64,000 nucleotides of DNA from a virus. The notes under the pieces are model-generated. The model had not been told where the DNA came from. It worked only from the letters and a program-made list of their open reading frames with translations, and did no database searches. Positions 6,407 through 44,579 of this stretch are shown piece after piece. Both the position numbers and the translations under genes were made by a program. The stretch is from IMG/VR virus record IMGVR_UViG_3300045738_000438, positions 1 to 64,000 of that record, one strand, 5' to 3'. Within the stretch, counting starts at the first letter, position 1. Each line of letters begins with the position of its first letter.

Positions 6407-7879
6407 TTAAAGCGGGACGGCGGTTAAGCTCATTCTTCCGGCAGTCGGATCGCTGAAAAACTCAAGGTCGGCGGACATTTCTCCGATTAGCGCATAGCTG
6501 AGGCTGTCGAAGCTATGTTTATTGTCATCGCTAATGACATATTGCCCCACTGACTTTCCCTTCCTTAGGTACCTGAACATTTCAACCGTCTTGATACAGT
6601 GTGCAGATATGTGAAGCCGGTTTTGCATGAGAAGGTCTTTCAGGAGTTTGACTCTTTGCCTGACTGAACCTGAAAACTTGGGCGCACCGATGAGGTTTAT
6701 CTTCCCGTTGCTGGCAGCAGCCACAACCCTATGATCATAGGTGTTAGCCGAAGCCCTGTACCTCACCATTGACGAAGTGTCAGACCAGTGAGTCCACCTT
6801 ATCTCCTTGCCCAAGTGTTCCTCAAGTCGTTCTATTCTGTCCATTGCTTCCCCGGTGAAATCCTCCAAGGATACGTCAGCATGGAGTACCACAAGCTCGT
6901 CCAACACTGTCCATCTGGTGCCTTGGACGGTGTTCACTTTTTCTAGGATGTGAAAAGCGTGGTTTCTGTCCCCCAAGTCCCAGCCACCTATAAGCTCAGT
7001 GCAAGCGTTTGTGGGCAATATGACTTCCCATTCGTCTTCAATGGGGCTGTCGATGTTCCCAACAACGTGGGTGTCAAACTTAAACACCTTTCCGAAGTGT
7101 GCGTTTGAAGATGAGGCTGTCCACTTCCCAAGCACATACCTATCATAAAGCTCCGGGTCAGGCCGAAACGTGGCAATCAAGTCCTTCTTGTCGTACTCGG
7201 ACAAGTAGGGGTTGTCATCAACCATTGCTTCGATCAGGTCAAACTGGGCTATGTACTCCGGGTCGGGGTGGTCATCCTTCCCCGGCTCCTCATACCACAT
7301 TTTATAAATCCAAGAGTTTGTTCCCTCTTCTGCTGGGTTTGTGTCCCCTATCCACTGGTGCTTTTGGTATGGCAGGCCGGGGAGCCGAAGCTGCCCCTTT
7401 GATATGGTGAAAACGCAGGAGTCTTTGAAGTTGGATAGCTCGGAAAAGAATATCAGGGAGAACCTAGTGCCCTTGATTTTCTCCTCAATGTCATGGTCTA
7501 CGTCAAGTGAGTGCAGTTGGATTTCAGTTTCGTTGCCGTGCATGTTGGCAACCCTCATGTAGTGCATCTTGGTAACACCATCAACCTTTGGGGGGACGGT
7601 AACCTTGAAGCCATCAAGGCCCGCCTCCCACTCAGGAAGGATTACATCAATGAGGTCAGACCAGACACCAGACTTGGCGTTCCTGATTGTCTTGCAAAAT
7701 ATTCCGACCCGTCCACTTCTGGTCTCCCAGCAATGGCGCATCAGCCGGTGGAGAACGCCGATGGTTTTGGAGGAATAGCGGGGGCCACTCACAAGAAGGT
7801 ATCTTCCGGTGGAGTTGAAAATCTCCAGTTGTTTTGGGGATATGCTGGGATACCAGTACCCACTAGCGTCAAGAGGCAT
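6407..7879 (-). CDS. terL: Terminase large subunit
   Basis: The 490-residue product is the DNA-packaging motor: an N-terminal ATPase with a variant Walker A (SGPRYSSKT, residues 31-39) and Walker B (LIFFSEL, about 142-148), then a C-terminal RNase-H-like nuclease beginning near residue 296 (GGWDLGDRNHAF). Length is normal. It is the only - strand gene among the structural genes, convergent with the lysis cluster and divergent from the portal operon by 29 bases. A promoter (TTGCCA-18-TATAAC) ends six bases before its ATG, implying a leaderless message. No small terminase subunit is recognised nearby. Confidence 0.9.
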   Translation of the reverse strand: MPLDASGYWYPSISPKQLEIFNSTGRYLLVSGPRYSSKTIGVLHRLMRHCWETRSGRVGIFCKTIRNAKSGVWSDLIDVILPEWEAGLDGFKVTVPPKVDGVTKMHYMRVANMHGNETEIQLHSLDVDHDIEEKIKGTRFSLIFFSELSNFKDSCVFTISKGQLRLPGLPYQKHQWIGDTNPAEEGTNSWIYKMWYEEPGKDDHPDPEYIAQFDLIEAMVDDNPYLSEYDKKDLIATFRPDPELYDRYVLGKWTASSSNAHFGKVFKFDTHVVGNIDSPIEDEWEVILPTNACTELIGGWDLGDRNHAFHILEKVNTVQGTRWTVLDELVVLHADVSLEDFTGEAMDRIERLEEHLGKEIRWTHWSDTSSMVRYRASANTYDHRVVAAASNGKINLIGAPKFSGSVRQRVKLLKDLLMQNRLHISAHCIKTVEMFRYLRKGKSVGQYVISDDNKHSFDSLSYALIGEMSADLEFFSDPTAGRMSLTAVPL

Positions 7880-8426: not shown

Positions 8427-10721
8427 ATGGTAGACCTAAACGTACTAACTTCCCGTGGGGTTACGGCTGATGCCGCCAGAAAGGCGTTTGACAAGGATGA
8501 TGACTCTCAGGTTCCAGAAAAAGCCTTGGCGTTGCTGGATCGGATGCGGCAGCGGATTGATGACGGGGTGAACTGGTGCATCCAGAACCACAAGATTTAC
8601 CATGCACTGGACTTGGCTTGGGACGCCCCGCTTAAACAGGTCAGCAACACGCTGGCCTATTCTCTTTTAGAGAAGGGGCTAAGTGATGAGTCAGTCCTTA
8701 ATGCCGCCAAGGACTGGGGGCTGACCGGGATGATAGAGACCGTCAAGGACGGCAAGGGGGAGCGGAGCCAGTTAAACCTCCCGGTTTTCTTTAACATTTT
8801 TGTGCCGCTTGTCCGATCCTACGTCACCATCAGGTGGGCTAGAATTTACAATGACCGTAGGCAGTACCCGTTGTTCAAGTATGAGATGGGGAAAAACACC
8901 ACCAAGAACAAGATCAGGTCTGAGATTATAACCGACAGGGTGCAGGTGATGTCTAACCAGCATGGGTACTCTGAGCTTTTGAAGCAGGGAATCTTTCATA
9001 TGCTTCACTACGGGTGGGCTGCCCAATTTCCGCAGGAAGAATGGCACACGGAGAAGCAGGTGCTGTTTGGTGCCAATAACGCCGAAGAGGAAAAGACGGT
9101 AAAGGAGGGGATTCGTTACAACCTTCCGCATCCGAGCCGAGTGTTTCTGGATCAAGCCCACAGGCCGACCACATATAACTCTGACAGCGGTTGTGAGTTT
9201 GCAGGGTACTGGAGGATCATGCGCTACCGGGACATTCGGTCTAACCCCATGTTCTGGAATACGGACAAGATTACGTATGGCAGGACAACGCAAATCTTAG
9301 GCAAGGCCAAGACATATCTGGAGTTGGTCTCTCCCTGTACAATGGAGTTCCCTCAGAGCCGATCCAACTTCGTAGAAACAGACCGGGAGACGGAGATGAA
9401 CAGGTTCTATCGTTCATCTGACGATGACAAGGCAGTGCTGATTACAGAGTATTATGAGAAAATTATTCCAAGTGAGTGTGGCCTTGGTGATTATGATCAC
9501 CCTGTATGGTTTCGTTTTTGTTTGGCTAATGATGATACTGTTCTCTACGCTGCTCCTTTACCTTATTGCCCCGTTGTATACTACGCTTATGACCCGCATG
9601 AAGGGAAAAGCATCAACACCTCGTTGAGCCTTGAGGTTGTTCCGTTCCAAGACCAGATAGGGAACCTTCTCAGCCAGTACCTGTTGAGCGTTAAGCAGAA
9701 CCTAGCCAACATGACCTTTGTTGACACTGATCAGGTGCCCAAGGACATGATAGACAAGCTCCAGAACTGGGGGGAGAAACTGTTTCGTAGCCTCAACTTC
9801 ATGCCGTTCTCGTCTAGGCAGAACAAGTTTGCCCAGAGCGACGTGAGGGAGGCGTTCAACTCTGTTCGGTTCACCGCGCTGGACACCAACGGGATTGTTG
9901 GTGCCATGAAGCAGATCATAGACATGCTGGAGCGGTTGCTTGTTATCTCCTCGCAGGAGATTGCACAGGTGGCAGCGCATGAGCAGACCGCCGAGGAAGT
10001 ACGCACCATCGCAAGCACCACCACCACCCGCCTGTCCTTCACGGCTTCAGCAGTGGATGACGCCATGCTGGCGTGGAAGGAGCAGCTATACCGAGGGTTA
10101 ATGGCTTATGGGGAAGACGAGATTTACGCAACTATTAGCTCAGATTACACGGCTGAACAAATTCAGAACCTTGGTTTCACGGTTGAAGAGGAAGACGAAG
10201 ACCGCGCTGGTCTTATTAGAGTACGAGGACAGAAGACTGCTCTTAATCTTGAGGTCATTGGCTCTTACCGGGACAGTCTGGACAGGGTTTCAGATAATGC
10301 TACGGCTGCTGCCCTGACCCAGTTGTATCAGATCGTTGTGAGTGACCCTGAGATCAAGCAGAGTGTTGGCGTGGATCAGATTCTGGATGTTGTGAACCAG
10401 ATCGGAACAATGCTGGGGCTTCCAAAAGACTTTAAGCTTAAGAAGATTGAGGGTGCCGAGCAGGAGCAGCAGGCCGAGAAGATGGCGGCTGTAGCCGAGG
10501 AGATCAGGAACTCAATAATCAACGAGGTGGGCGAAGCCATTAAGCCCATAGCCGAGAATTCCCAACAAAATACCAACCTTATTAAACAAATCATGGAGGC
10601 AATACAGGGTGGGCCGCAGCCGTCTAACCCAGCGCAATATGATACAGGTAACGCAGTCCCCTCTGGAACTCCAGCCGATGCTAGGTATCCAGAATTGGCT
10701 CAAGCAGGGCCAATACGCTAA
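8427..10721 (+). CDS. Portal protein
   Basis: At 764 residues this matches the size of large podovirus portals, and it occupies the canonical place before scaffold and capsid. The N-terminal third is helical with conserved-looking aromatic/basic stretches (NIFVPLVRSYVTIRWARIYNDRRQYPLFKYE). The middle has the wing/stem-like region (SLSLEVVPFQDQIGNLLSQYLLSVKQNL). The C-terminus is a long Gln/Glu-rich coiled coil (about 670-730). It forms the dodecameric DNA channel at the capsid vertex. Identification rests on position, size and secondary-structure pattern. Confidence 0.8.
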   Translation: MVDLNVLTSRGVTADAARKAFDKDDDSQVPEKALALLDRMRQRIDDGVNWCIQNHKIYHALDLAWDAPLKQVSNTLAYSLLEKGLSDESVLNAAKDWGLTGMIETVKDGKGERSQLNLPVFFNIFVPLVRSYVTIRWARIYNDRRQYPLFKYEMGKNTTKNKIRSEIITDRVQVMSNQHGYSELLKQGIFHMLHYGWAAQFPQEEWHTEKQVLFGANNAEEEKTVKEGIRYNLPHPSRVFLDQAHRPTTYNSDSGCEFAGYWRIMRYRDIRSNPMFWNTDKITYGRTTQILGKAKTYLELVSPCTMEFPQSRSNFVETDRETEMNRFYRSSDDDKAVLITEYYEKIIPSECGLGDYDHPVWFRFCLANDDTVLYAAPLPYCPVVYYAYDPHEGKSINTSLSLEVVPFQDQIGNLLSQYLLSVKQNLANMTFVDTDQVPKDMIDKLQNWGEKLFRSLNFMPFSSRQNKFAQSDVREAFNSVRFTALDTNGIVGAMKQIIDMLERLLVISSQEIAQVAAHEQTAEEVRTIASTTTTRLSFTASAVDDAMLAWKEQLYRGLMAYGEDEIYATISSDYTAEQIQNLGFTVEEEDEDRAGLIRVRGQKTALNLEVIGSYRDSLDRVSDNATAAALTQLYQIVVSDPEIKQSVGVDQILDVVNQIGTMLGLPKDFKLKKIEGAEQEQQAEKMAAVAEEIRNSIINEVGEAIKPIAENSQQNTNLIKQIMEAIQGGPQPSNPAQYDTGNAVPSGTPADARYPELAQAGPIR

Positions 10722-12557: not shown

Positions 12558-14501
12558 ATGGCTGATTCAAATCTACCTCTAGCATCGACTACATTCCAAG
12601 ACAAGCAGTGTACAACTGCAATCTGGAACAACTATGACACGTGTGGAACTATCACACGGGCGGACATCGGTTTAGCTAACCCAACCGACTTAGAAACAAT
12701 TTTTAAAACCGGGACTGAGACCCAACTGGGTGGTTCAGGTAAACGATACCGGGACATGGAAAGCCTTTTGGTTACCAATCTTGAGCTTAAGGCTTGCGGT
12801 GGACGCCAGTACGGCCTCTATGACTGGCTGATGTCCAGTGGTAAATCAATGGGCGGCGGTGTGACCAAGCGTTCCATAGCTGGGGCGGGGGTTGAGATTG
12901 AGCCGTTCATCATGGCTGCCCAGAAGGACACCATTAAGGACGATTACTGGACAGTGGAGAAAGTCTTTAACCACCTGTACAAGTATGAGACCCACGCTAA
13001 CGGCACTGGCACAACTCCGTCTTCGGCTGACAGCACTTTAGCCGCCGCACCGTTCTCTGGCATAGTGAGCGGTAACCTTGTTGTCCGTGTTTTAGTAAAC
13101 TCTGATAGCAACCAATCTGCTGCGGCTGCTTATTTTACAAGGGGAGCATCCTTCTTTTGGTTCTCAAAAGACAGCACAGGGAAGAGCTACAAGGTTGAGT
13201 TCAAGGTCAAAGATGTCCCCACTGTAACCCTCTCCAAGGCTGGCCCTGCCGTTGCCGGTGCTGAGACCATTGACATCCTGTGTGTGCCAGTTAGCGCGTT
13301 TGCTGCTAATAACGCCATTGGTGGAACCGCTTCGGCGGATGTTACTGCTGCTGATATTGTGTTTGGGGCCAACAAGGTGTTATCCCTTTTGGGTTCCCAA
13401 GGCACAGGAGGACAGGGTGTTCTTGTTGCTGGCACAAATAACGTAAGTGACTTTGAAAGCTGGTGCTTCAATCGTCCTGCGCTGAACACCAACAAGCACG
13501 TTCCGTTCTGGTACCAGACCAGCCGTTACACGCTATGTGTTGACCAGTTCTACAAGGAATGGTTGGAGCGGATGATGCGTACAAACTCCTACTTCCAGAA
13601 GTTTGGTGACGTTTCATTGGCAGATCGCAACGCGCAGTTGGGAATGCGGTTCCAAAAAGAGTGGGTGAACTCCTTCTTCTTTGGGAACAAGATCGGCCCC
13701 TTACAGACTCTTGCTGGATACAAGGGTTTAGAGACGGTGACTGCACATGATCCCAGTGAATCTTCGCTGGCGACGGGTCTTGAGGGTAGCGCAATCGGTT
13801 ACCGCGCCAACGCAGTTGGTGTCTACCGTCAGCTTGCTGATTGTGGGCGTGTGGTTGACAAGCGGGCTGTTGCCTTCGACCTCCGCTCGTTTATCGAAAA
13901 CGACATCTTCGACATTGTTCGTTCCCGCAAGGATCAGAACAAGCCTTCGGATCAAATTGACGTGTTCACGGACTCCAAGACAGCCAAGAACATCTTCAAT
14001 GCGATGGTTAGGTACTACGCGCTTGAGGGGGGTGCCTCTCAGTCCAGCAACACTGTTTCTGGTGGCGCACTGAGGCTGAACATGGATATCACAGCCAAGA
14101 ACATCGACAGCTTGGGTTTCTATTCCAACTCATACAAGCTGCATTACCCCGCTGGTGTGACGCTTAACGTGATCACCAACGAGTTCTTCGATGATATGGT
14201 GTCAGCCTCCAAGGCGGCTGATGTTAGCACCACCGCTGCCACGGACGGCTCCAATGGTCGATACCTCATGGTGTTGGACTTGGGCGGCGGCATCTATCCG
14301 GGGATCATCGGCAGCAACCGTGTGGTTCATACCACCGGGGCACTGAACGAATTGGCTAAAGTCAACGCGGATTACGCCTGCGTCATGGCGAATCCGACCA
14401 AGGAAACCACGCTCAACTCCTTGACGTGGACTGCGGTTGTGGAGTGCCCTTCGGATAATCTCATCATTGAGAATTTCCAAGACGCCGCCATGTCAGTATA
14501 A
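12558..14501 (+). CDS. Major capsid protein
   Basis: The 647-residue product follows scaffold and is followed by a strong terminator, as expected for the most abundant virion protein. It has long mixed alpha/beta sequence with the features of a large HK97-fold capsid: an N-terminal arm (LPLASTTFQDKQCTTAIWNNY), an Ala/Thr/Gly-rich insert at about residues 150-260 that could be a surface domain, and a C-terminal P/A-domain-like part. The AGGAAAG of the upstream repeat serves as ribosome-binding site. The call is by position, size and insulation. Confidence 0.85.
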   Translation: MADSNLPLASTTFQDKQCTTAIWNNYDTCGTITRADIGLANPTDLETIFKTGTETQLGGSGKRYRDMESLLVTNLELKACGGRQYGLYDWLMSSGKSMGGGVTKRSIAGAGVEIEPFIMAAQKDTIKDDYWTVEKVFNHLYKYETHANGTGTTPSSADSTLAAAPFSGIVSGNLVVRVLVNSDSNQSAAAAYFTRGASFFWFSKDSTGKSYKVEFKVKDVPTVTLSKAGPAVAGAETIDILCVPVSAFAANNAIGGTASADVTAADIVFGANKVLSLLGSQGTGGQGVLVAGTNNVSDFESWCFNRPALNTNKHVPFWYQTSRYTLCVDQFYKEWLERMMRTNSYFQKFGDVSLADRNAQLGMRFQKEWVNSFFFGNKIGPLQTLAGYKGLETVTAHDPSESSLATGLEGSAIGYRANAVGVYRQLADCGRVVDKRAVAFDLRSFIENDIFDIVRSRKDQNKPSDQIDVFTDSKTAKNIFNAMVRYYALEGGASQSSNTVSGGALRLNMDITAKNIDSLGFYSNSYKLHYPAGVTLNVITNEFFDDMVSASKAADVSTTAATDGSNGRYLMVLDLGGGIYPGIIGSNRVVHTTGALNELAKVNADYACVMANPTKETTLNSLTWTAVVECPSDNLIIENFQDAAMSV

Positions 14502-14575: not shown

Positions 14576-15010
14576 ATGGCAAATGCTAAGAAGCATTACT
14601 GGAAAATTGACGGTGCGGGAGTGTCATTTAACCTCCCAGACGGATCAAAAGTTTTTTTTGAAAAAGTCTACGGAAACATAGGTTTCGCTATTGTCGATGA
14701 TGACCAGAACGAGCAGCTTGTGGCCATGCTTGGGACGGGTGGCCTCGTCCAGACAACCAAAGGGGATTACGATGAGCTAAAAAAAAAGCCGCCTTTAGAT
14801 CAATCTCCTCGGCAATGGAGAGAAGAGTTCAGCCCAGAGATGCTGTCTTCGTCGCCCCAGTACGAGAAAGTCGCCGCTGCTGTGGCGGCTGATGCTGAAC
14901 AGGGTTCCGATAAAGATGTGACGCCATCTGCAAAACAAGCCAAGCAGGCTAAGCTGCCCGCTGATGACAAGCCGCTTGCGGGTAAGCGCAAGGCAAAAAC
15001 TAAAGACTGA
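14576..15010 (+). CDS. Hypothetical virion protein after capsid
   Basis: A 144-residue protein. The N-terminal ~75 residues look folded and beta-rich (WKIDGAGVSFNLPDGSKVFFEKVYGNIGFAIVDDD landmark region). The C-terminal half is an Ala/Lys/Asp-rich unstructured tail. TATACT lies eight bases upstream of the ATG, so translation may be leaderless. A head-completion or decoration role fits the position; no family is recognised. Its stop overlaps the next start (TGATG). Confidence 0.6.
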   Translation: MANAKKHYWKIDGAGVSFNLPDGSKVFFEKVYGNIGFAIVDDDQNEQLVAMLGTGGLVQTTKGDYDELKKKPPLDQSPRQWREEFSPEMLSSSPQYEKVAAAVAADAEQGSDKDVTPSAKQAKQAKLPADDKPLAGKRKAKTKD

Positions 15011-16821
15011 TGAAATTCTCTGAACTGGTAGATGAGTTACGGGCCGACATTTGGCCTGAAGGTGTTCCTGAAAGTCTTGCTGGCCCCATCGGCAAGAGTT
15101 TTGAAGCTGGAATAACTCACCTTCAAAGGTATGTCCCCTGCCTCCAGAACAGAAACATTGACCGATACGCGCAGTGCGCCACTTACTTTCAGGGAGGCAA
15201 GACCGTGTTCTCTGCGCCTAAAGGCCGCATCCAGCGCGTATACACAATCTTAGGGAAGTCAGGTGAAGAGGTGTATCCTGCCCTGTTTAAGCAGGTCACC
15301 AAGGATGAGCTTGAGTGTGACAGCCTCAAGCATCTTTCAATGATCTACCCGCCGCTGAACCTAGCCAACGAGGATTTGCCTATGGGGTTCAAGTATCCTG
15401 AAAAGGATTCGGACTACATGGTGGACGCAACCGGGGCAAAGAAAACGACGAAGCATTACCGTGCCGTCATAGGGCGGTGGGCGGTGGAGAAGGAGAAGTT
15501 GTACGTTTCACCGTGGATCAATTCAGACGAGATAGTTGTTGTTGAGTGGGACGGGATTAAGAACAGCTTCAGTGGTGATGACATCATCACGGACGATGTG
15601 GACTTCAGGCGCACTTTGCGGTTGTTTGTCCAGCGTGAAACTGCGCGTGACTTTGACGCAGACTACGAGCGGTACAGGTACATGACCGTTGATTTCAATG
15701 AGGCACTGGGCGACCTGATCCATGAGTGCAAGAAAGAGAACGAAGTTAGGAAGACGTTTTACTGCGAGGAGGCATACGAAGTCTTGGCAGCCCGGAGGAA
15801 CAAGGTCTACGCCGAGGAGAAGGATGCGGCTACGGCAGCGGCGGCAGTGGTGGACGCCATAACCTCCTACACGTTTGGCGTGATTGGAGACTACGGTGCA
15901 TCATTGGCAGCATCAGGTGCATGGAATGGCGACAACGCCGAGGCGGTTGCTACATTGGTCAAGGGGTGGAGTCCAGACTTCATCCTTACGGTTGGTGATA
16001 ATAGTTACAGCCCCACAGGCGGGGACACTGGTGGAGCGACTAGCGATATCAGGCACGGCAAGTATGACCAAAATATTGCCCAGTGGTACGGTGACTTTAT
16101 ATTCCCCTACGGTGGTGATAATGATGCCTATACCAGCACCGCAACCGAGAACAAGTTTTTCCCTGCTGTCGGCAACCACGACATTACAGAGAACTACGGG
16201 ACTACGGATGCCGGGTTGAAGACGTGGCGCGGTTTCTTTTCACTGCCCAACAACGAAACAAACTACGTTGTCAAGAAGGGCCACGTGGATTTCTTCTGCG
16301 TGTTCAGCAACAAGAGAACTTCGGTGGCAACTGCTTATGATTCCAATCTTGGTGTAGGCGAAACCAGTGCGATGCATGAATGGTTGGATGCTGCTCTTGC
16401 TAACAGCACCGCACACTGGAAGGTGGTTTACTTCCATCATGCACCCTATACGTCAGAGTCTACCCACCTGAATGGTGATGCCGACATGCAGTGGGACTTC
16501 CCCACAATGGGAAACAACGGGGCTGACGTTGTTCTGTCCGGTCACTCCCATTGTTACGAGCGGCTCAAGGATGCCAACGGGTTCCCTTACTTGATTTGCG
16601 GCGCAAGCGGAGCAGAACTTCGGGCACAGGGATCAACGAGCGGACTGGCCGCCGGGATAACAAGTGAGAAATATTACAGCACCGAACATGGTGCCATTAG
16701 GGGGACAGTGGATAACACGACCCTTACGTTTGAATTTATCAATAAGTCAGGAACCGTGATTGAGACATACACGCTGACCAAGGGGGCATCGGACACCACC
16801 ACAACTAGAACTGTAACATGA
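15010..16821 (+). CDS. Tail-tube adaptor fused to calcineurin-like phosphoesterase
   Basis: The 603-residue protein has two parts. Residues 1-275 sit where podoviruses encode the gp11/tail-tubular-A-like adaptor and end in a helical Ala-rich linker (EEKDAATAAAAVVDAI). Residues ~285-590 form a metallophosphoesterase of the purple-acid-phosphatase type with the metal motifs in order: GDYG (~293), GDNSY (~329), GNHD (~388), FHHAPY (~475) and GHSHCYER (~511). All five blocks are intact, so hydrolytic activity is expected. The enzyme should be displayed on the virion neck or tail. The substrate is unknown. The phosphoesterase call is strong; the adaptor call is by position. Confidence 0.85.
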   Translation: MKFSELVDELRADIWPEGVPESLAGPIGKSFEAGITHLQRYVPCLQNRNIDRYAQCATYFQGGKTVFSAPKGRIQRVYTILGKSGEEVYPALFKQVTKDELECDSLKHLSMIYPPLNLANEDLPMGFKYPEKDSDYMVDATGAKKTTKHYRAVIGRWAVEKEKLYVSPWINSDEIVVVEWDGIKNSFSGDDIITDDVDFRRTLRLFVQRETARDFDADYERYRYMTVDFNEALGDLIHECKKENEVRKTFYCEEAYEVLAARRNKVYAEEKDAATAAAAVVDAITSYTFGVIGDYGASLAASGAWNGDNAEAVATLVKGWSPDFILTVGDNSYSPTGGDTGGATSDIRHGKYDQNIAQWYGDFIFPYGGDNDAYTSTATENKFFPAVGNHDITENYGTTDAGLKTWRGFFSLPNNETNYVVKKGHVDFFCVFSNKRTSVATAYDSNLGVGETSAMHEWLDAALANSTAHWKVVYFHHAPYTSESTHLNGDADMQWDFPTMGNNGADVVLSGHSHCYERLKDANGFPYLICGASGAELRAQGSTSGLAAGITSEKYYSTEHGAIRGTVDNTTLTFEFINKSGTVIETYTLTKGASDTTTTRTVT

Positions 16822-19292
16822 CACCTGTACCAAAACCTGCGCGCCGAACCATTTTTGAGAACATAAAAGACGCCCCGTGCATAGGGGTTAAAAGTGTTGT
16901 CACCACTATTGATGACACCACTGTAGTCGGGGAAGCAGCGGGTTGTAGTGACCCGGAGTATGCTGCGTTGGCGGGTGAAGCCCTCTGCTCAAACGCGCCT
17001 TCAATAGAGAGACTTATCGTCGGCCCAACATCTGGGCACACTATAGCTGCGGTTACTGGAAGGGCTTCGTATTCAGCCAAGCTTGAGTTTAAGTACAAAG
17101 ACGGGACGATCAGGAAAAAGGATGTAACTAAGGAGGCTTCATGGGATTCGGTCAATCGTTCAGTTGCGAAGTGGGCCGGGGCTGAGAGGGGGGTATTCAT
17201 GGGACTCTTCAACCCAGACACACCAACATCAACAACAAGTATTATTGCGACTTACACACCTTCTGCTCCTGTTAATGGGGAAAACAGAACACGGGTGAAG
17301 GGGAATAAGCTGGAAGGCAGCGCACCCATCACGGTTCAGCACAGGTGCGTGGATAACGCAATAGACATTGTTCTGGTTGTGGACAGGAGTGGGTCAATGC
17401 GGAAGGTCGATGATGCGGATGGAGGAATATCAAGGATAGAAGGTGCCAAGGCGGCATGTAGGGCACTCATTGAAAACGCCAAAATGGCAGAGCCGAAAGG
17501 CAATCCTTCTAAAGATTCAAACCCAGCAGAAGAAACCGTTACAAGCCCAGCAAACCCGCGTGGAGAATTTGACAGGATAGGGATCATTAGCTATGCAGGT
17601 AAAAGTGGAGAGAAAGCTGTTCACCGTCACTCAGATAAATTCCTACTAACGAAAAGTGAAGCCCTTGCTGTGGTTGATGAGATAGAAATATCCAGTGATT
17701 GCGAAGGGCCAAGCAAGCGACTGAAGGGTTGCTACACTGGGATGGGTGGCGGGCTAGATGAAGCCTACAACTTGCTCAAGGAGGACTACAGGGGGGCAAC
17801 ACCGCGCACCAACTACCCAAGGAAAGTTATCGTCTTACTGACAGACGGCCATGAGAACGTCTGCGCCCCTGACCCTGAAGTGATTGCTGCCAAGATTGTG
17901 GCTGACAGGATTGGTTCTTCCACTGAGTCAAACGCCTGCAACACCATGATTGCAGTTGTAGGTTTCACACTAGACTCCACAGCCACGGTGAAAAGATGCA
18001 ACGGCGCAAGTGTGACCGTTGATGTCTTCTTAAAGGCACTCGGAAATTGTTACGGAAACTCAACAAGCAGTGCGCTTTCGTTGGTTTTCTACCCGCAAAA
18101 CATTGATGACCTTAAGGTAACATTCACTGATGCCATGCGGAAAATATGCGAGGACAACGAGCAAACCGGGACAGGCACCGACACCGATACGCCGTGTGAG
18201 TACCTTGCAATAACAAACATGTACAAGGGGCACGCAAAGGAACTCTTGGATAAGTTCAGCTTTGACGGTTTTAAGAAATGGTTTGTCTGTAAGAACACGG
18301 TAGACCTAATGGGCACACACGTATTCAAGACTGTCCAACCGGGGCTTGGAACCTATGTGGGCCTAATTGGTAACCGTGGGACAAAACAATTATCAGACCT
18401 TAAGCAGGCTAATTTGTTTTCGGATTTTGGTAAGGAAGCCAAAACATGCCAAAGGATGTTCGCCCCTTATGACCACAACTTTGGGGGCATAGAAACCAAG
18501 ACTAAGTATCACCTGTCAAGTCTCACGGAGTACAGGCTGGTTGTGAAGGCGGCAGGAAATATCACACAAGGAGCAGGGCAGTTTAAACACGGCGTAGAAC
18601 TTGGGAGTAGCATCAGGATTACCGTTGGAGGGAAGCAGGAGGGAACACTTGAGATAAGTAAAGCGTACCCAGACGGAAGGGTTGCCAGATACATTGACGA
18701 GGAAGGCACCATAGAGGATGGGCGAGTTGATAATATCCCAAGACTGGTGACAAGGGAGATTGTTGGGGCACTGTTTGAGGTGGTTGAACCCATAGGCCCA
18801 AGCAGCGCAGCATTTGACTATTCTTATACGTTCTGGGGCAACAACAAAGAGAACGCCATAAGGATAGAGCAGTTCCCTGCTGATTACTCGGACGAGGCGA
18901 ACTATGCCACAAGCACCACCGATCACATGTTTGCAAATGCCGCAGCAAGAGACGCCATCTTCGATGGTAAAGGGTGTGCCGTGATCAAGGGAGACCCTGA
19001 AGGGGATGAAGAAAGCCCACTGCTTGTATCCGACTTCAGCGGGTTTGTTGCCGAGGGCAACGCGGCAGGTGGAAGGGTTGCTGTAAGTGCTGACAACGCC
19101 CACCTCTACGAGTACCAAACAAGCGGAGCTGACGCCGAGTTAAGCAACGTGCCGTTTGGGGTAAACATTATAGAGGTCACGCTACAGTCAGGGAAGACGG
19201 TCGATGGGGTGTTTATACCTAATACAATCGCAGCCGCAGACCACATACTCTTTGATGACTTTGAAGACGCTGGAGGAGTTGTAGCACCGTAA
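16818..19292 (+). CDS. VWA-domain virion protein
   Basis: The 824-residue product contains a von Willebrand factor A domain at about residues 180-430 with the MIDAS signature DRSGSM (~188), the Thr loop TGMGGG (~307) and LLTDGHEN (~340). Further beta-rich regions follow (~470-824). No signal peptide or membrane span is seen. The ATG overlaps the preceding stop (ATGA), and a glycosyltransferase gene follows (TAATG). The position suggests a tail or neck protein that uses metal-dependent adhesion to bind host or another virion protein. The VWA call is firm; the structural role is inferred. Confidence 0.85.
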   Translation: MTPVPKPARRTIFENIKDAPCIGVKSVVTTIDDTTVVGEAAGCSDPEYAALAGEALCSNAPSIERLIVGPTSGHTIAAVTGRASYSAKLEFKYKDGTIRKKDVTKEASWDSVNRSVAKWAGAERGVFMGLFNPDTPTSTTSIIATYTPSAPVNGENRTRVKGNKLEGSAPITVQHRCVDNAIDIVLVVDRSGSMRKVDDADGGISRIEGAKAACRALIENAKMAEPKGNPSKDSNPAEETVTSPANPRGEFDRIGIISYAGKSGEKAVHRHSDKFLLTKSEALAVVDEIEISSDCEGPSKRLKGCYTGMGGGLDEAYNLLKEDYRGATPRTNYPRKVIVLLTDGHENVCAPDPEVIAAKIVADRIGSSTESNACNTMIAVVGFTLDSTATVKRCNGASVTVDVFLKALGNCYGNSTSSALSLVFYPQNIDDLKVTFTDAMRKICEDNEQTGTGTDTDTPCEYLAITNMYKGHAKELLDKFSFDGFKKWFVCKNTVDLMGTHVFKTVQPGLGTYVGLIGNRGTKQLSDLKQANLFSDFGKEAKTCQRMFAPYDHNFGGIETKTKYHLSSLTEYRLVVKAAGNITQGAGQFKHGVELGSSIRITVGGKQEGTLEISKAYPDGRVARYIDEEGTIEDGRVDNIPRLVTREIVGALFEVVEPIGPSSAAFDYSYTFWGNNKENAIRIEQFPADYSDEANYATSTTDHMFANAAARDAIFDGKGCAVIKGDPEGDEESPLLVSDFSGFVAEGNAAGGRVAVSADNAHLYEYQTSGADAELSNVPFGVNIIEVTLQSGKTVDGVFIPNTIAAADHILFDDFEDAGGVVAP

Positions 19293-20248: not shown

Positions 20249-21715
20249 ATGCCAAACATAAGACCATCAGACTTTAGCTACTACCTTCCCAAGGAGAAGG
20301 ACACGGTGGCTCAGGGTCTTCTTAAGTTCATACGTTTCTCAATTGTTTTTTGGCGTTGGTTCAGGTCTTCCGTTAACACGGACGGAAGCCTAAGCACCCA
20401 GTTTAAGGGTGGCCTTTGCAACTTAGACCGGGACAACTGTCGCCAAGGCAAGACGGTTGTTCCGGGGGAAGGCCCGGAGAATGGCGGCGGTGGAGGCAAC
20501 GGTGGGGGCGGCGGCGGCGGCGGCGGGGGTGGAACCGGCGGCGGCGGGGGTGGAGCGGGAGACTGCTCTCAGGTTGCCTTCAGTGACCCAGCTTGTTGTG
20601 ACACGGTTCGTCATTATGGCATGGACATGCCAGACGGGGTAGAGGAGTCGAACCGAAAGAACGTCAAGGCCCGTGGTTCCTTTCATTATTACAACCCGGT
20701 TAGACTGGATGGCATAACTGGCGGGGTAGATTTGTTTTGCGACAACGATGGCCGCAAACAGGTGGGTGTGTTGATGACGCACAAGCAGTCATTCACGTCA
20801 AACATGGCGTGGTCTAGGGATGTGGCTTCATATTCATCTCCGATATCTGGGACTGGGTCAACAAGCGGAGGGCAAACAGAGTTCATTGGGGAATACCCGG
20901 ACGAAGAGAACAGGGGCACAGCCCTGCACAAGACTGGCTCATGGCAATGGACGGAGGTTTTGATCTATGGGTACACGGACATGCTTATCCCGCCAAAGGA
21001 CGCCATCAAGGGGGCTAAGGTTCTTGGGAGCTTTACAACAAACCCACTAAGCCCCGTAGCAGCAGGTACGCCGATACGCTTTCTGGTTGAAAACAACGGG
21101 GAATGGTGTGTGCGCCTATGGATTAGGGACTGGCCGTTGGATGCTGTAGACAATGGGGGCTGGCCAACACGTGGGTTTCGCATTGATTTTAGCAGGGCAA
21201 TACCTTACGAGTACAATCCGCAGTACGTGGCGTGGGATGGCGACCCAGAAGAAATGGGGCAACTCCCTTCTTCACAGCTTTATTGGCCACAGGAATACAC
21301 GGCAGGCACAAATGGGGTCAGGAAACATCAACGATATCTGACTAAAGTAAACGGCGTAAGGATCACACTGGCAGGAAAACACGTGGGCATAACTGAGACA
21401 CTTAAGCGTCCTTTATTATGCGGAAACTCACCGTGGATGGGGCCGATTGGAACGTACCAAAATGCGCCTAACGCCGAAGGGTTTGTTGTGTACGACGAGC
21501 GGTGGCAAAATGAAAGACCTTGCTACACTGAACAGGCAGGTAACGATATCGTCCAGACCAAGCCGAGGGCGTTCACGTGGTCTGAGGACGGGAAGGGTTC
21601 CAGCCATTCGTCATACCCAATGAGTTGCGTGAACGAGTTAGAAGTGACTTACGATATCTCACAAGACAAAGCCAATATAGACGCATCACATTTAACACAA
21701 GAAAGAAGAGGATAA
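20249..21715 (+). CDS. Virion protein with shared N-terminal domain and poly-Gly linker
   Basis: The 488-residue product has an N-terminal ~65-residue domain (PSDFSYYL...WFRSSVNTDGSLSTQFKGGLCNLDRDN pattern) that resembles the N-terminus of the next protein. A 35-residue, almost pure glycine linker (residues ~78-110) follows, then a ~370-residue cysteine-containing beta-rich domain that I do not recognise. This suits an anchored, flexible tail appendage: anchor, linker, head. The shared anchor implies both proteins dock on the same virion component. Confidence 0.7.
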   Translation: MPNIRPSDFSYYLPKEKDTVAQGLLKFIRFSIVFWRWFRSSVNTDGSLSTQFKGGLCNLDRDNCRQGKTVVPGEGPENGGGGGNGGGGGGGGGGGTGGGGGGAGDCSQVAFSDPACCDTVRHYGMDMPDGVEESNRKNVKARGSFHYYNPVRLDGITGGVDLFCDNDGRKQVGVLMTHKQSFTSNMAWSRDVASYSSPISGTGSTSGGQTEFIGEYPDEENRGTALHKTGSWQWTEVLIYGYTDMLIPPKDAIKGAKVLGSFTTNPLSPVAAGTPIRFLVENNGEWCVRLWIRDWPLDAVDNGGWPTRGFRIDFSRAIPYEYNPQYVAWDGDPEEMGQLPSSQLYWPQEYTAGTNGVRKHQRYLTKVNGVRITLAGKHVGITETLKRPLLCGNSPWMGPIGTYQNAPNAEGFVVYDERWQNERPCYTEQAGNDIVQTKPRAFTWSEDGKGSSHSSYPMSCVNELEVTYDISQDKANIDASHLTQERRG

Positions 21716-21719
21716 TTCT

Positions 21720-23852
21720 ATGCCATCACCAGTAAAACCGAGCGACATAAAGGAAACACTAGCAACAACTGACAGCTATGTTTGCACCAGACTAAAGAAG
21801 GTTCTCGTTGATTTCCCTAAGGCTGTTTATGCGTGGTTCTCCTATATTTACAACGAGGATGGGACGTTCACAGATGACTTCAAGGACGAGATTTGTGCAA
21901 TAGATTGCGAGAACATAATAATCAAACCACCTCCGATCCCCTGTGACCCGGAGACTGATTCAAATTGTGAGCCACCCGTAGGAGGATTGGAGCCGCCGCG
22001 TGTAAGGGCAGGAGCCGCAATGAGGCACGCAGGTGGAATCCCCTTGGTGTGGCCGCATGTCACTGGTGCCAGAAGCTATGATCTTTACAGGGCAGATACC
22101 GCAAGCACTGTTCCCGCCAGCAGAACCCTCTTAAGAAAAGGGTTGATATGGAGTGACGGATACAATTCAGACAGGAACAAACTACGAAGGAGACCTGACG
22201 ATACGTTCTTGTTTGTTGATATCCCTAATGGGCTGGCTTGGGATTCAGGAAATGCTGAACATGCAGCAGGGAGCGCATTGGATGGCGGCGAATCCTACTA
22301 TTACTGGGTGAGGGCCGTTGATGTTAATGGCAACCCAAGCGGCTGGAGCAAAAGCGCGTTGGGCTTCAGTCGTAATGTTACAAACTTTGACTCCATTGGA
22401 ACCGCAGCCTTGCTTTGGTCTGGTCAGGAAGCCACACCGCTTGCCACAGGAGAAAGCGAGGGGGTAGGTGGACTTTTTGCCAAGACTAAGATGCGCGTCA
22501 CGTTGCGCTCAGGCGGTGGTGGAGGTGCAGGCGGTGGGGATTACAACACCCCGGTTTACAATAAGTTCCACATCACCGCCATAACCCATGACAACAATAC
22601 AGGAGACAACACGTTTACACTGGATTCAAATGCAGGCGACCACGGATTTAAGGGGGGCTATCAGGTTACACTGGATGGAAACAGCAATACGGCATGGAAT
22701 AAGAAGTTCGGCGTCCATGAGTCAATGAAAGAGTCAAACAAGTTCAAGCTTGTGGCGGCAGAGTGTGTCGGCCTTGGCTCCCCCACTGCGGCGACCAGCG
22801 GAACCCTGCCTGACAACTCAGCCGTGAGTCATTACGGAACTGTATATGCCACAGACTTTAAGAACCCCGTCAAGATCACAGGAGGTGGAGGTGGTGCGGG
22901 AGGAATTGTTCAGGCGGTTTTCACAATTGACGATCTAGTCAAGGTTAGGGTCAGGACATACGACATTAACGGACTCCTAGTGGACTACACAACAGGTTCA
23001 GTTGCAGAAGGCCCAACCAAGGCGAAGCTTGATAATCCAACAAACTCAACACACCTTACAGCGTCTACTATCCCTGATGACACCAGCTACTTCCCGTTCA
23101 ACCAAGGGGGCCGAGGAAGGAATGATGCATCTGCAACAGTTGGTTCCGGGGTAGGCCCGCCGACTCCCGGCGTTCCTGCTTCGGATGACAAGCATTCCGC
23201 TAACGCGGCCCCGTACATCACGGTGCTTGAGATATCAGATGATACGGGAAGCTCCCCAACTTGGTATCCCATATTATGGGTAAGTGACGGAGAAGGCGGG
23301 GGGTATAAGAACTCTGGAGACGGAGGGAACGTCAGCGTAGGAGGCCAATCCGCAAGGCCAGTGTGGTGGAGGAAATCCCTTTTGGATGAGGCTGCCTCTA
23401 CGTCCACCGCCTTGGGAAGTGTCGTGGCATTCAAGGCAACCGACCCAACTGACAGCAATTACGTAAAGGCCCAGTACGGTTACATAGACTACGAGCCATC
23501 GTCTGGAGGTGCAGCCACACTTAGGGCTGCCGCTCTTAACGGGAAAGGGATTGTGTTCTATGACGGCGGCGATGGCGCGGACGGAGTCGTGGCCAACCCG
23601 TTCACTGGCAAAGGAGGGCACGTGTGGGATGGCTTGGTTCACCAAGGGCCACCTTCTGCCCGCCACCTCCCGTTGCATTTAAGGTTTGACCGCCTTGGGC
23701 AGGCGTTCGACATCAAGCAGTCCCCCGGTAGTGGTGGTTGGGGTTGCCAAGGGACAGGTGAACAGCAATTTGGGAGACACGCATGGGGAGGCCACGCCTT
23801 AGCTGGGTGTGCATACCTGACCTACGCAACCGCAGACTATGACGGGGCATGA
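21720..23852 (+). CDS. Gly-rich tail appendage protein with shared N-terminal domain
   Basis: The 710-residue product opens with KPSDIKETLATTDSYVC..., the same anchor-like domain as the preceding protein. Residues ~95-220 look like a fibronectin-III-type domain (PPRVRAGAAMRHAGGIPLVW, SYDLYRAD). The remainder has repeated Gly-rich patches (RSGGGGGAGGG, ITGGGGGAGG) and a C-terminus rich in Gly/Ala (HAWGGHALAGCAYLTYA), as in phage glycine-rich receptor-binding proteins. It is probably a tail fibre or adhesin. Confidence 0.7.
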   Translation: MPSPVKPSDIKETLATTDSYVCTRLKKVLVDFPKAVYAWFSYIYNEDGTFTDDFKDEICAIDCENIIIKPPPIPCDPETDSNCEPPVGGLEPPRVRAGAAMRHAGGIPLVWPHVTGARSYDLYRADTASTVPASRTLLRKGLIWSDGYNSDRNKLRRRPDDTFLFVDIPNGLAWDSGNAEHAAGSALDGGESYYYWVRAVDVNGNPSGWSKSALGFSRNVTNFDSIGTAALLWSGQEATPLATGESEGVGGLFAKTKMRVTLRSGGGGGAGGGDYNTPVYNKFHITAITHDNNTGDNTFTLDSNAGDHGFKGGYQVTLDGNSNTAWNKKFGVHESMKESNKFKLVAAECVGLGSPTAATSGTLPDNSAVSHYGTVYATDFKNPVKITGGGGGAGGIVQAVFTIDDLVKVRVRTYDINGLLVDYTTGSVAEGPTKAKLDNPTNSTHLTASTIPDDTSYFPFNQGGRGRNDASATVGSGVGPPTPGVPASDDKHSANAAPYITVLEISDDTGSSPTWYPILWVSDGEGGGYKNSGDGGNVSVGGQSARPVWWRKSLLDEAASTSTALGSVVAFKATDPTDSNYVKAQYGYIDYEPSSGGAATLRAAALNGKGIVFYDGGDGADGVVANPFTGKGGHVWDGLVHQGPPSARHLPLHLRFDRLGQAFDIKQSPGSGGWGCQGTGEQQFGRHAWGGHALAGCAYLTYATADYDGA

Positions 23853-25864
23853 GAATACCACCTGATGCAAAACTATATGAACTGCGCCCGTTAACTGGGC
23901 CGCTTGACCCATCCTCGTCCCCTGATGCTGTATTGGCGGGCGGCCACAGGTGGGTACAGAACTTCAGGGTTAACGCATCTGGTGCGCTGGCTAGAGCAGA
24001 AGGGTTTAGGCGTCTGTTATACACCAGCACTGGCTACAACAACGCTGATCTGCACAACCAACTGGAAAAGACAGAGTCCGGTGCAACGGCAGAGGACATC
24101 ACACTTTTGTTTGAGGCGGGGTCTTCTTCAACAGGGCTTGGCAAGTTGTTAGCCGGGACTAAGAGCAGGCTTTACGCGCTCAACACCAAGACAAAGAACT
24201 GGAAGCTGGTTGGCGAATCCATGAGTGGCGACGGGGCGTGGAAGGCGGCTCAACTTGGGGAGTTTGTTATCTTTGTGAAAGGGTCAGGGGTTCCTGTTTA
24301 TTATAAGTACGACCAACCACGTGAGCAGGAGAGTGTTGGCGGCAACCTTGTGGACAAGACCAACTCCCTAAAGGAAATAGATTCCTTCAAGGAGATAGGG
24401 CTGAACAGGGTCAGGCATATAAAAGAGTGGCGCGGGTTGATGTTCTACGGGAACGTGAGTGAAGGGAACGAATGGGTGCCAGATCGGCTGGTGTGGTCAG
24501 ACTTTAAGAAGCCGTTTGAAATAACACCAAACGTAACAGACAGCTTGGCTGGGTACCAAGACTTGGGGGAAGGCGAAGAGATCGTCGGCATGGAGCCGAT
24601 TGCTAATGTTCTCCTGATTTATACCAAGCGGGGCATCTGGCAGTTTGAGGTGTCTGGTGGTACGGGGACTGATGTCCTGACCTTCAGGAAGCGTTACTCA
24701 GATGAGGCCAACGGGGCAATGATTCCGAACTATCCTAACACTATAGTAGCTGCTGGAGACCAGCACTTCTACTTGGGAAGGGACGGTGTATATTCCTATA
24801 ACGTGTACAAGGGAAACCCCGCCAAGGAAGACTGGCTGCAACTGGCGTCCAGCGTCATCTTTGATGACATAAACACAAGCCTTTGTGAGTTACCCATTGC
24901 AAGTTTCAATGCCAGAAACAACGAGGTCTGGATTAGTTGGCCGAGCAAGAACGCCACAAAGAACGACAAGACCTTGATCATCAACACAAAATACAAACAT
25001 GTATCTTATATGGACGCAGGCTTCACGGCGTTCACAAACTACACCAACCATGAATACACAAGCTTGGGGGAGTGGATGTCCTCAACTAATTACGTCTGTT
25101 CCCCCTCCAAGATAAACAGCTTCAGGGAGGGAACCGAAGGGGCAAGCATTGATGTTTTTAGTACCGATGTGGGCACCCCGGCCATCACGGAAATATTTAA
25201 CTTTGATTCCGACATAAGCTCAAACGGAACACCGAACGTGATCAGTGACACCGGCTTCAGCGGCGACGACCTGAAAACAGAAAACTGGGGGCTGACGGCA
25301 GAGTCAACAAGCCTGTACACCAAGCTTGGAAGCACCACCTATGCCGACCTATGTACGGTTAGCTGCCCTGATGAGGTTAGGTTTGTGATGGCGTATGCCA
25401 CTGACAACTGCCTGAAGGAAGACGGGAACACCTACACTAGGGAGAGGTACAATGGTTCCATATATGAGAAGGATGACTACAAGTCTATCCTGACTAGCCC
25501 AGCACTCAGGCTTAACGACCCAACCAAGGATAAACTATTAAGGGCTTTAACCTTAGAGTTTGACCACGCTCAAGCAGGAGGAAAGATTGTCCTAAGGGTG
25601 GGGAACTCAGCGCAGGCTACAGACCCCAACAAGGTGGGTTGCGGTTTAGTGTGGCACAAGCAGGCTGACGAGAAGTCAGTTAGCTGCGTTACTGAAAACT
25701 CCAGAACAGAACACGCCGTGCTTGGAACCAGAGCATCCGAGGAATTAACTTGGCCCCTGTATACTCAGGGAAGGAACCTGTACTACGAACTCTCTATCAG
25801 CGGGACAGGGGGTGCGTTTGAAGCCACAGCAGTGAGGTTATATGCCGCAACTCAAAAAACGTAG
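23849..25864 (+). CDS. Tail nozzle protein (tail tubular B-like)
   Basis: At 671 residues, with the N-terminal pattern PLTGPLDPSSSPDAVLAGGHRWVQNFRVN and repeated beta blade-like units (LLAGTKSRLYALN, LLIYTKRGIWQFEVSGG, AAGDQHFYLGRDGVYSYN), this resembles the beta-propeller nozzle proteins that cap short tails. It starts by ATGA overlap with the previous gene. It is expected to form the hexameric tail tip through which DNA and internal proteins exit. Confidence 0.7.
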   Translation: MRIPPDAKLYELRPLTGPLDPSSSPDAVLAGGHRWVQNFRVNASGALARAEGFRRLLYTSTGYNNADLHNQLEKTESGATAEDITLLFEAGSSSTGLGKLLAGTKSRLYALNTKTKNWKLVGESMSGDGAWKAAQLGEFVIFVKGSGVPVYYKYDQPREQESVGGNLVDKTNSLKEIDSFKEIGLNRVRHIKEWRGLMFYGNVSEGNEWVPDRLVWSDFKKPFEITPNVTDSLAGYQDLGEGEEIVGMEPIANVLLIYTKRGIWQFEVSGGTGTDVLTFRKRYSDEANGAMIPNYPNTIVAAGDQHFYLGRDGVYSYNVYKGNPAKEDWLQLASSVIFDDINTSLCELPIASFNARNNEVWISWPSKNATKNDKTLIINTKYKHVSYMDAGFTAFTNYTNHEYTSLGEWMSSTNYVCSPSKINSFREGTEGASIDVFSTDVGTPAITEIFNFDSDISSNGTPNVISDTGFSGDDLKTENWGLTAESTSLYTKLGSTTYADLCTVSCPDEVRFVMAYATDNCLKEDGNTYTRERYNGSIYEKDDYKSILTSPALRLNDPTKDKLLRALTLEFDHAQAGGKIVLRVGNSAQATDPNKVGCGLVWHKQADEKSVSCVTENSRTEHAVLGTRASEELTWPLYTQGRNLYYELSISGTGGAFEATAVRLYAATQKT

Positions 25865-28041: not shown

Positions 28042-29883
28042 ATGCCAACTTTTTACGAAATAGCAGAGAACGCAAGGAGGAGGAACCAGAGAAACCTCAC
28101 CCCCGGAGCAGACATCAACTATCAGTACGGGCCGTTTGGGGCCAAGGGTCAAAACACCGCGCCGGTAGGCATGGGCCAGCACATGATTGAGCCTGATTAC
28201 TACACTCCTCCGGGGACTTCCAACAACCAGATGTGGTTCGCAAACGAAGACCCGTCACAGCAGTTTGATTCTTTCCAAGCTGCAATGGATTTCACTGGAG
28301 GCGACCCTGAGATGGAGCGCAAGGTGGCAATGTACAACGCCGATGCCGCCCAAAAGAAACAAGATGCAAACAGGAAGGTGGCAATGGAGTTGATGAACCA
28401 GCAGCGGCTCAGGGAAAACGCCATGAGAGGCATGGCCGAGACGAGGAGAAGAGACCAAATCAAGTTTAATCAGGAAACCTACCTAAGGAGAGATACCGAA
28501 AAAAGAAGACAGGATTCATCAGACAGGACTGCCTTAATTTCAGCGGCACAATATGAAAGAGACCCACGTAAGAGGCAGCAGTTGAGGAACATGTTAATGC
28601 AAAGCGGGGGGACAAGTGCGGACGCTGCTAGATTCAATGCACTCACATCCAACAGGGACTACTACGACAAGAACTACAACCGGAACGAAGAGGAACAACA
28701 GCAGAGGTCTGATTTTACATTTGCTGCGAACGCGCTGAAGGCTGGGGCTAGGCAGGGCTGGGACGAGCTTGGCTATGATTCCAGCACCTTCTCCTCACGG
28801 CAACGTGCAGCACTGGGAATGTACTCACGGACGTATGACACGCAGGCCAATTCGTTTGACAACCAAGCCAAGCAGATAACCAGAGGTGTCAGGGCTTTTA
28901 ACGACAACATAAACAACCTTCAAGACACGGAGTTTAACAGGGCGAACGACCCCAATTTCATTTTTGATCAGAGCAAGATTGATGATCTGGAAATTGCGAA
29001 GGCGAAGTACATACAAGCAGCCAAGGACGGGGGTTATATTACCGATGGTTCCACTGAAGGAAACATACAGTCAGCTTGGACGCCTGAGCTTAAGCCAAGG
29101 TGGGGTAATGTGTTCGACCAAAACAACCAAACCACCCAAAGCGGTGGTGGGAACTATGTTGTGCCGGGGAAAATCTATGAAGATAATTTAAAGAACGCCC
29201 AATACGAATACAGCCAAGCTCAGAATAACTTAAGGTTGGCTGGGTTGGCCGATGAGAAAAACAACAAAGCATCTGCACAAGATGCAAGGGGACTGAAGTA
29301 CAGACTGGAACAGCAGGCTCACCATGCAATGACGAATCCGGGAAATTCGGTTCACCGTCAACGCGCTGGGGGCGACCCGACACGTCTTCCCGTGAGTGTC
29401 GATTCTCCTGAGTTCTTTGAATATTACTCAAGAGAAGTGGGCGAAGAGAAGGCACGTCAAGAAATTGATCAATACAATGTAGACATGCTCGCCGATTTTT
29501 ATGCTGGAAAATACGACCGGAGCGAGACTACGCTAGTCGGTGAATCCGAGTTGAGAAGGGCAGAGAAAAACCTAAAAAAAGCACGGGAAGGTTACTTCAA
29601 AGGAAGAGCAGATGACGCGGCAGCCGCTGCTGCAAGTCCACCTACCCCGGCGTCCGCTACTGGGCCGAGTCCTGAAGCTTCTTCCCTCAACGTGGCTGAT
29701 ACAGGGTTTGCAAACCCCTACGTGGAGGGCCGAACCACCATCACCAAGTCACAGGCAATTCAGAGAATCATGTCCCGCATGATGGAAATAATGCAGGCGG
29801 GTGGGGATGACAGTAGCCGTGAAAGCGCAAAGAGGATGGCTACCGCCGAGGTGTACAGGAACTACAACGTAAGAGATTATTAA
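28042..29883 (+). CDS. Internal virion protein, medium (gp15-like position)
   Basis: The 613-residue protein is hydrophilic and helical, rich in Gln, Asn, Arg and Asp (RRRDQIKFNQETYLRRDTEK, NRNEEEQQQRSDFTFAANAL) with an Ala/Pro-rich segment near residue 540 (DDAAAAAASPPTPASATGPS). Its stop overlaps the start of the giant gene (TAATG), so stoichiometric co-expression is likely. The role as an ejected tube protein is inferred from order. Confidence 0.6.
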   Translation: MPTFYEIAENARRRNQRNLTPGADINYQYGPFGAKGQNTAPVGMGQHMIEPDYYTPPGTSNNQMWFANEDPSQQFDSFQAAMDFTGGDPEMERKVAMYNADAAQKKQDANRKVAMELMNQQRLRENAMRGMAETRRRDQIKFNQETYLRRDTEKRRQDSSDRTALISAAQYERDPRKRQQLRNMLMQSGGTSADAARFNALTSNRDYYDKNYNRNEEEQQQRSDFTFAANALKAGARQGWDELGYDSSTFSSRQRAALGMYSRTYDTQANSFDNQAKQITRGVRAFNDNINNLQDTEFNRANDPNFIFDQSKIDDLEIAKAKYIQAAKDGGYITDGSTEGNIQSAWTPELKPRWGNVFDQNNQTTQSGGGNYVVPGKIYEDNLKNAQYEYSQAQNNLRLAGLADEKNNKASAQDARGLKYRLEQQAHHAMTNPGNSVHRQRAGGDPTRLPVSVDSPEFFEYYSREVGEEKARQEIDQYNVDMLADFYAGKYDRSETTLVGESELRRAEKNLKKAREGYFKGRADDAAAAAASPPTPASATGPSPEASSLNVADTGFANPYVEGRTTITKSQAIQRIMSRMMEIMQAGGDDSSRESAKRMATAEVYRNYNVRDY

Positions 29884-44384: not shown

Positions 44385-44579
44385 CAGCTTGTGGAAGGCT
44401 TTGCGTATCCAGTATCCACGCATGAAGGCGACAGCCGCAAGCACCAGTGACATGCCAGCGTTCTCGTACATGCGTATGCCGTAGCCGAGCCAGTGGAGTA
44501 GTCCATAAACCAACAGAAGGTTGATCACGTAACCTACCACCACGTTGGTCAGGCTTTCTGCGGCGTGGAGTTTACTCAT
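44325..44579 (-). CDS. Small phage membrane protein (DUF7220-type)
   Basis: The 84-residue protein (ESLTNVVVGYVINLLLVYGL...MRGYWIRKAFHKL) has two hydrophobic segments and the pattern E-S-x-x-N-V-x-V-G-Y-x-I-N near the start and R-x-Y-x-x-R-K-x-F near the end. This matches a widespread phage membrane-protein family that I know as DUF7220. Its start overlaps the integrase stop (ATGA) and its 3' end overlaps the end of the giant gene by 60 bases, tail to tail. Function is unknown; superinfection exclusion is a possibility only. Confidence 0.75.
   Translation of the reverse strand: MSKLHAAESLTNVVVGYVINLLLVYGLLHWLGYGIRMYENAGMSLVLAAVAFMRGYWIRKAFHKLSRQPGAGLERPRPASSDKP

Follow-up and report, generated by a model that had tools for sequence, protein, structure and literature searches.

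Virion enzymes are usually found in tail spikes, in fibres or among injected proteins. Why, then, should a phosphoesterase be joined to a protein encoded where a short-tailed phage keeps its head-tail adaptor? The question is raised by a 64,000-nt stretch of viral DNA (hereafter the window) lying within a virus record of 67,431 bases, in which one open reading frame almost certainly encodes a single protein: a phosphoesterase of the purple acid phosphatase (PAP) type, preceded by an N-terminal part that sits where the head-tail adaptor is expected (Table 1). On balance, we favour the reading that the protein serves a short-tailed phage as head-to-tail adaptor and that its PAP-type domain acts on, or grips, phosphorylated host-surface polymers from the neck. 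Such a fusion at the neck would provide a different route of contact with the host surface.

Table 1. Coordinates of the adaptor-phosphoesterase fusion, its parts and motifs, and the neighbouring structural genes (positions in the window).
Feature	Position	Strand	Basis and remarks
Portal protein, by position and size; expected docking partner	8427..10721	+	70-81% conserved in fused group
Scaffold, by position and size	start 10936		
Major capsid protein, by position	12558..14501	+	Gene order and conservation
Adaptor-PAP fusion protein	15010..16821	+	Single ORF, 603 aa, ATG to stop; full-length conservation in other contigs
Head-tail adaptor domain, residues 1-252	15010..15765	+	AF2 model (helices, beta dock, two long helices); Foldseek matches to phage neck/adaptor proteins; unfused 263-265-aa homologues in same gene position
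Predicted C-terminal adaptor helix, residues 253-275	15766..15834	+	AF2 secondary structure, low confidence; compare T7 gp11 embracing helix
Ala/Val-rich linker, residues 276-286	15835..15867	+	Alignment; length and sequence vary among homologues
PAP-type metallophosphoesterase domain, residues 287-603	15868..16818	+	Pfam, PDB sequence matches, Foldseek
Motif I, GDYG, residues 293-296	15886..15897	+	Presumed ligand D294
Motif II, GDNSY, residues 329-333	15994..16008	+	Presumed ligands D330 and Y333 (PAP signature GDxxY)
Motif III, GNHD, residues 388-391	16171..16182	+	Presumed ligand N389; catalytic H390
Motif IV, FHH, residues 475-477	16432..16440	+	Presumed ligand H476
Motif V, GHSH, residues 511-514	16540..16551	+	Presumed ligands H512 and H514
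gp10/nozzle-like tail protein; expected distal adaptor partner	23849..25864	+	phrog_3287, E 1.3e-30

An earlier note on this DNA described a metallophosphoesterase with all five metal-binding blocks, and the description was borne out. The Pfam family Metallophos (PF00149) matches residues 288-516 with an E-value of 6.1e-13 (50.1 bits; cut-off 21.5) and is likewise matched by all 15 aligned homologues. The five motifs together provide the full seven-ligand PAP set, DDYNHHH, tyrosine included; the residues that we take to be the ligands (D294, D330, Y333, N389, H476, H512 and H514) were assigned from general knowledge of the PAP family. The closest solved structures are purple acid phosphatases both by sequence (profile E-value of about 1e-7) and by fold, the best Foldseek match of the domain being 5uq6 (E = 4.8e-11). 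The domain shares its five motifs, seven ligands and fold with TRAP/ACP5, plant PAPs and bacterial PAP-like enzymes (e.g. Hymenobacter WP_245126117.1). Judging from its ligands, the domain is probably catalytically competent in the window phage.

The nearest cellular proteins that we found are bacterial PAP-like phosphoesterases with an intact DDYNHHH set, identical in its ligands to that of the window protein. Two relatives from Hymenobacter start with a signal-peptide-like segment and end with a type IX secretion sorting domain, one of these domains scoring over and the other under the Pfam cut-off; the nearest cellular relatives thus look exported, as far as their sequences can tell. Unlike exported bacterial PAP-like enzymes, the phage domain comes without a signal peptide and as part of a predicted virion protein, and some of its members are ligand-depleted: the fusion protein begins with MKFSELVDELRADIWP, which by eye is devoid of signal-peptide character, and the PAP-type domain follows the adaptor domain. 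A first phosphoesterase tree was blurred by the very long branch of MT837099; in the second, from which that sequence was excluded, all phage domains grouped together in a single clade, apart from four cellular domains (support 98/93). This topology is compatible with a single capture, and the tree and the domain searches together support descent of the domain from a bacterial, probably exported, phosphoesterase. When a TerL tree was built with haloviruses and Gordonia phages as outgroups, its branches were too long for safe rooting of gain versus loss.

Related contigs in IMG/VR were compared. Both domains are present in 17 contigs besides the window, one of them ending near the end of the fusion, and in two further contigs (L002 and L059) the contig ends fall inside it. 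Full-length relatives are 51-66% identical, with L029 as an additional one. The fusion was also encountered in a very divergent phage, L058, the capsid and nozzle-like proteins of which are only 30% and 32% identical to those of the window; its fusion protein is 34% identical across nearly the full length. Since the fusion recurs in 17 closely related contigs and in one remote contig, it is neither a product of chance nor a sequencing or assembly artefact. Directly after it, and overlapping its stop codon, the window carries a gene for a VWA-domain protein (16818-19292, + strand; Pfam VWA_2, E = 8e-7; MIDAS motif DRSGS at residue 189), and the fused relatives that were examined have this gene after the fusion as well. 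L058 contains neither the VWA gene nor the genes after it in the window and is nevertheless fused, so the fusion is independent of them.

A second set of contigs was sampled through the portal protein, independently of the fusion. In the group whose portals are 70-81% identical to that of the window, the adaptor was fused in all contigs where it could be read (15/15). In the group with 45-48% identical portals all eight adaptors were unfused and 263-265 aa long, similar in size to podovirus head-tail adaptors. These sister-group proteins occupy the identical slot in a conserved gene order, which in the relatives runs portal, scaffold, capsid, small gene, fusion and, further on, the nozzle-like gene; in the window and relatives alike the adaptor gene lies downstream of the portal gene, after the capsid gene and before the nozzle-like one. 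The existence of a sister group with the adaptor alone in the same gene order indicates that adaptor and phosphoesterase are separable modules. The gene for the large terminase subunit (6407-7879, - strand) adjoins the portal gene and is read in the direction opposite to portal and capsid, an arrangement that is kept in the relatives.

The carriers are short-tailed phages of a group that is uncultured. When 50,697 phage records were searched with the fusion protein, the capsid protein, the unfused adaptor and the sister-group portal, no isolate relative of any of them came up, in keeping with the earlier note, according to which such a fusion is not known in a standard podovirus adaptor; the open-licence literature yielded no report of an adaptor-phosphoesterase fusion. 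MT837099, a human-gut record matched by the L058 protein, was rejected as a relative of the fusion: its phosphoesterase is a stand-alone protein, distant in sequence and devoid of an adaptor part. A Planctomycetaceae host was also considered. The sole match in the genome collection was a 3-kb contig of low coverage that had been placed in the bin of a Planctomycetaceae MAG, and the portal profile returned one trivial 20-bit match from 392 genomes of that phylum; no host is claimed.

Does the fused domain cut, or does it merely hold? In moderately diverged pairs, dN/dS is 0.04-0.06 in the adaptor and phosphoesterase domains alike (more distant pairs are saturated), and the two domains are therefore under similar purifying selection. 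The six core metal ligands are invariant in 14 of the 15 aligned close homologues, and three members (L008, L009 and L011) are devoid of only the PAP tyrosine. However, L004 has lost four ligands (D294 to N, Y333 to M, N389 to D and H512 to Q) and L058 two (N389 to K and H512 to G), in both cases together with H390, yet neither has a truncated or frame-shifted domain. In the phosphoesterase tree L004 is nested among intact members, whereas L058 branches outside them, and the losses are thus best read as separate. What is new here, then, is that the fusion is clade-wide and that two lineages dropped metal ligands yet kept the fused domain. The hydrolase at the neck proposed in the earlier note is consistent with the complete ligands of the window protein but, given the losses in L004 and L058, is not a rule for the group as a whole.

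Because the ligands were lost repeatedly while the domain was kept, catalysis seems dispensable in some members, and binding is the main and a serious rival to cutting. According to this alternative, the PAP fold mainly binds or decorates, gripping phosphorylated or glycan surface polymers or stabilising the neck, with any catalysis residual or dispensable; the unfused relatives, which manage without the domain, are in line with it. A pure binder, however, need not keep the six core ligands that nearly all close homologues retain, and we regard binding as the principal function as unlikely. A bolder view, which we hold to be doubtful, combines both: an exported bacterial phosphatase was acquired a single time by the neck ring, and separate lineages are now becoming a catalytically dead adhesion collar, which would leave a graded natural series between enzyme and pseudoenzyme on the phage particle. 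The matched sets of fused intact, fused degenerate and unfused proteins permit a comparison of cutting with gripping.

Under the preferred reading, that of an adaptor-borne domain acting at the neck, the PAP-type domain would be joined to the adaptor C-terminus through the short linker, and about twelve copies of the protein would form a ring beneath the portal, by analogy with T7 gp11 and P22 gp4. The extra domains might then project outward at the neck as a collar, where they would most likely remove or cut phosphate esters of host-surface or matrix polymers during adsorption and would probably also grip such polymers. The fusion protein is probably present in the virion at the neck; for its role at the host surface our suggestion is a tentative one. 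Wall-degrading enzymes usually act at the tail tip, from which the neck is distant, and this counts against our explanation. If correct, the fusion represents a natural case of an enzyme ring displayed on a phage.

There are precedents for hydrolytic adaptors (PMC5440376; PMC5741709). In Klebsiella phage KP32, the adaptor TTPA (tail tubular protein A) is reported to hydrolyse surface polysaccharide (PMC5440376), although this is put down to the adaptor fold as such, the protein having no phosphoesterase domain. ORF22 of Thermobifida phage P1312, encoded directly after the tail genes, combines a metallophosphatase domain with a carbohydrate-binding domain (PMC4569894), but is a separate protein of 1096 aa with a predicted signal peptide and no adaptor fusion. 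Mycobacteriophage A10ZJ24 likewise encodes a metallophosphoesterase, Gp48, which is reported to be an intracellular counter-defence factor (PMC12287305). Gp48 lends some credit to the possibility that the domain described here is an intracellular enzyme whose targets are nucleotides, defence signals or phosphoproteins, with the adaptor as a mere carrier. However, Gp48 is a free early protein with no virion fusion, adaptors, as far as T7- and P22-type phages show, remain in the particle, and the nearest cellular relatives have the look of exported proteins; we consider intracellular action quite improbable.

The assignment of residues 1-275 to the adaptor, also made in the earlier note from gene position, is supported by synteny, by the unfused homologues in the same slot and by fold searches. 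AF2 alignments were shallow, and the poor full-length model (pLDDT 50.5) was used for domain-level fold search only; the model of residues 1-275 (pLDDT 66.4) starts with two helices, continues through a beta region into two long helices and closes with one more helix. When this model was compared with the PDB using Foldseek, ranks 1-37 were all phage neck, adaptor or connector proteins, including those of SU10, GP4, cyanophage A4, Pa223, phicrAss001 and N4, as well as T7 gp11. The best match had an E-value of 8.9e-6 and a probability of 1.00, with low TM-scores (about 0.2-0.4) for a model of modest confidence. A library of viral proteins gave 110 matches at E<=0.001, and among the matches listed two were named head to tail adaptor. 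The comparison with gp11-like adaptors that the earlier note suggested thus finds support in the fold, but not in sequence: PDB sequences searched with a profile of the adaptor part yielded no adaptor. The adaptor part matched none of the PHROG adaptor families, and PHROGs and NCBIfam contained no family for the fusion protein. Adaptors are reported to have a common organisation without sequence homology, T7 gp11 being built as a helix bundle followed by the fibre dock and, at the C-terminus, the embracing helix (PMC6702177). Should a gp11-like order hold here, the phosphoesterase domain would be placed near the portal and the capsid floor, not at the tail tip.

The low TM-scores, the modest model and the failure of profiles to reach solved adaptors could also mean that residues 1-275 are a different neck or head-completion protein. 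We judge this very improbable, since the top fold matches are almost all adaptor or neck proteins and the helix-dock-helix order is that of T7 gp11. In gene position and in the predicted helix bundle and beta dock, the protein resembles T7 gp11, P22 gp4 and the neck proteins of SU10, GP4, N4 and phicrAss001. It is unlike podovirus adaptors in size: the matched solved chains are 181-259 aa long, with no room for a phosphoesterase, whereas here about 317 aa are added C-terminally. Finally, phosphate acquisition is a common job of PAP-type phosphatases, but a role in freeing phosphate from organic phosphorus, whether to supply the infected cell or at the surface of the particle, is most improbable for this domain, a dozen copies per virion being a poor vehicle and the searches run having found no other phosphate gene in the window.

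As for the neighbouring genes, the portal ORF had no significant Pfam or PHROG match and the capsid ORF no database match, while the nozzle-like product gave weak tblastn matches to Cronobacter and Salmonella phage structural proteins. Upstream of the latter gene, the products of two neighbouring ORFs (20249-21715 and 21720-23852, + strand) have an N-terminal module of ~65 aa in common (31% identity, E = 2e-6), followed by unrelated C-terminal parts, a pattern expected for alternative appendages with one attachment module. A tail-fibre-like protein of 927 aa with concanavalin-like and carbohydrate-binding domains is encoded at 64-2847 (+ strand). The giant ORF at 29883-44384 (+ strand; 4833 aa) has weak matches to ART-PolyVal (below the cut-off), DUF7178 and methyltransferases, a set resembling that of polyvalent proteins, which are thought to enter the cell alongside phage DNA. 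An integrase gene (44576-45445, - strand; phrog_1, E = 9e-37) suggests a temperate or recombining lifestyle. Further along the window, genes for a DUF2201 metallopeptidase/VWA-like protein (54287-55843, - strand) and an AAA ATPase (56808-57920, - strand) lie close together and resemble MoxR-VWA pairs.
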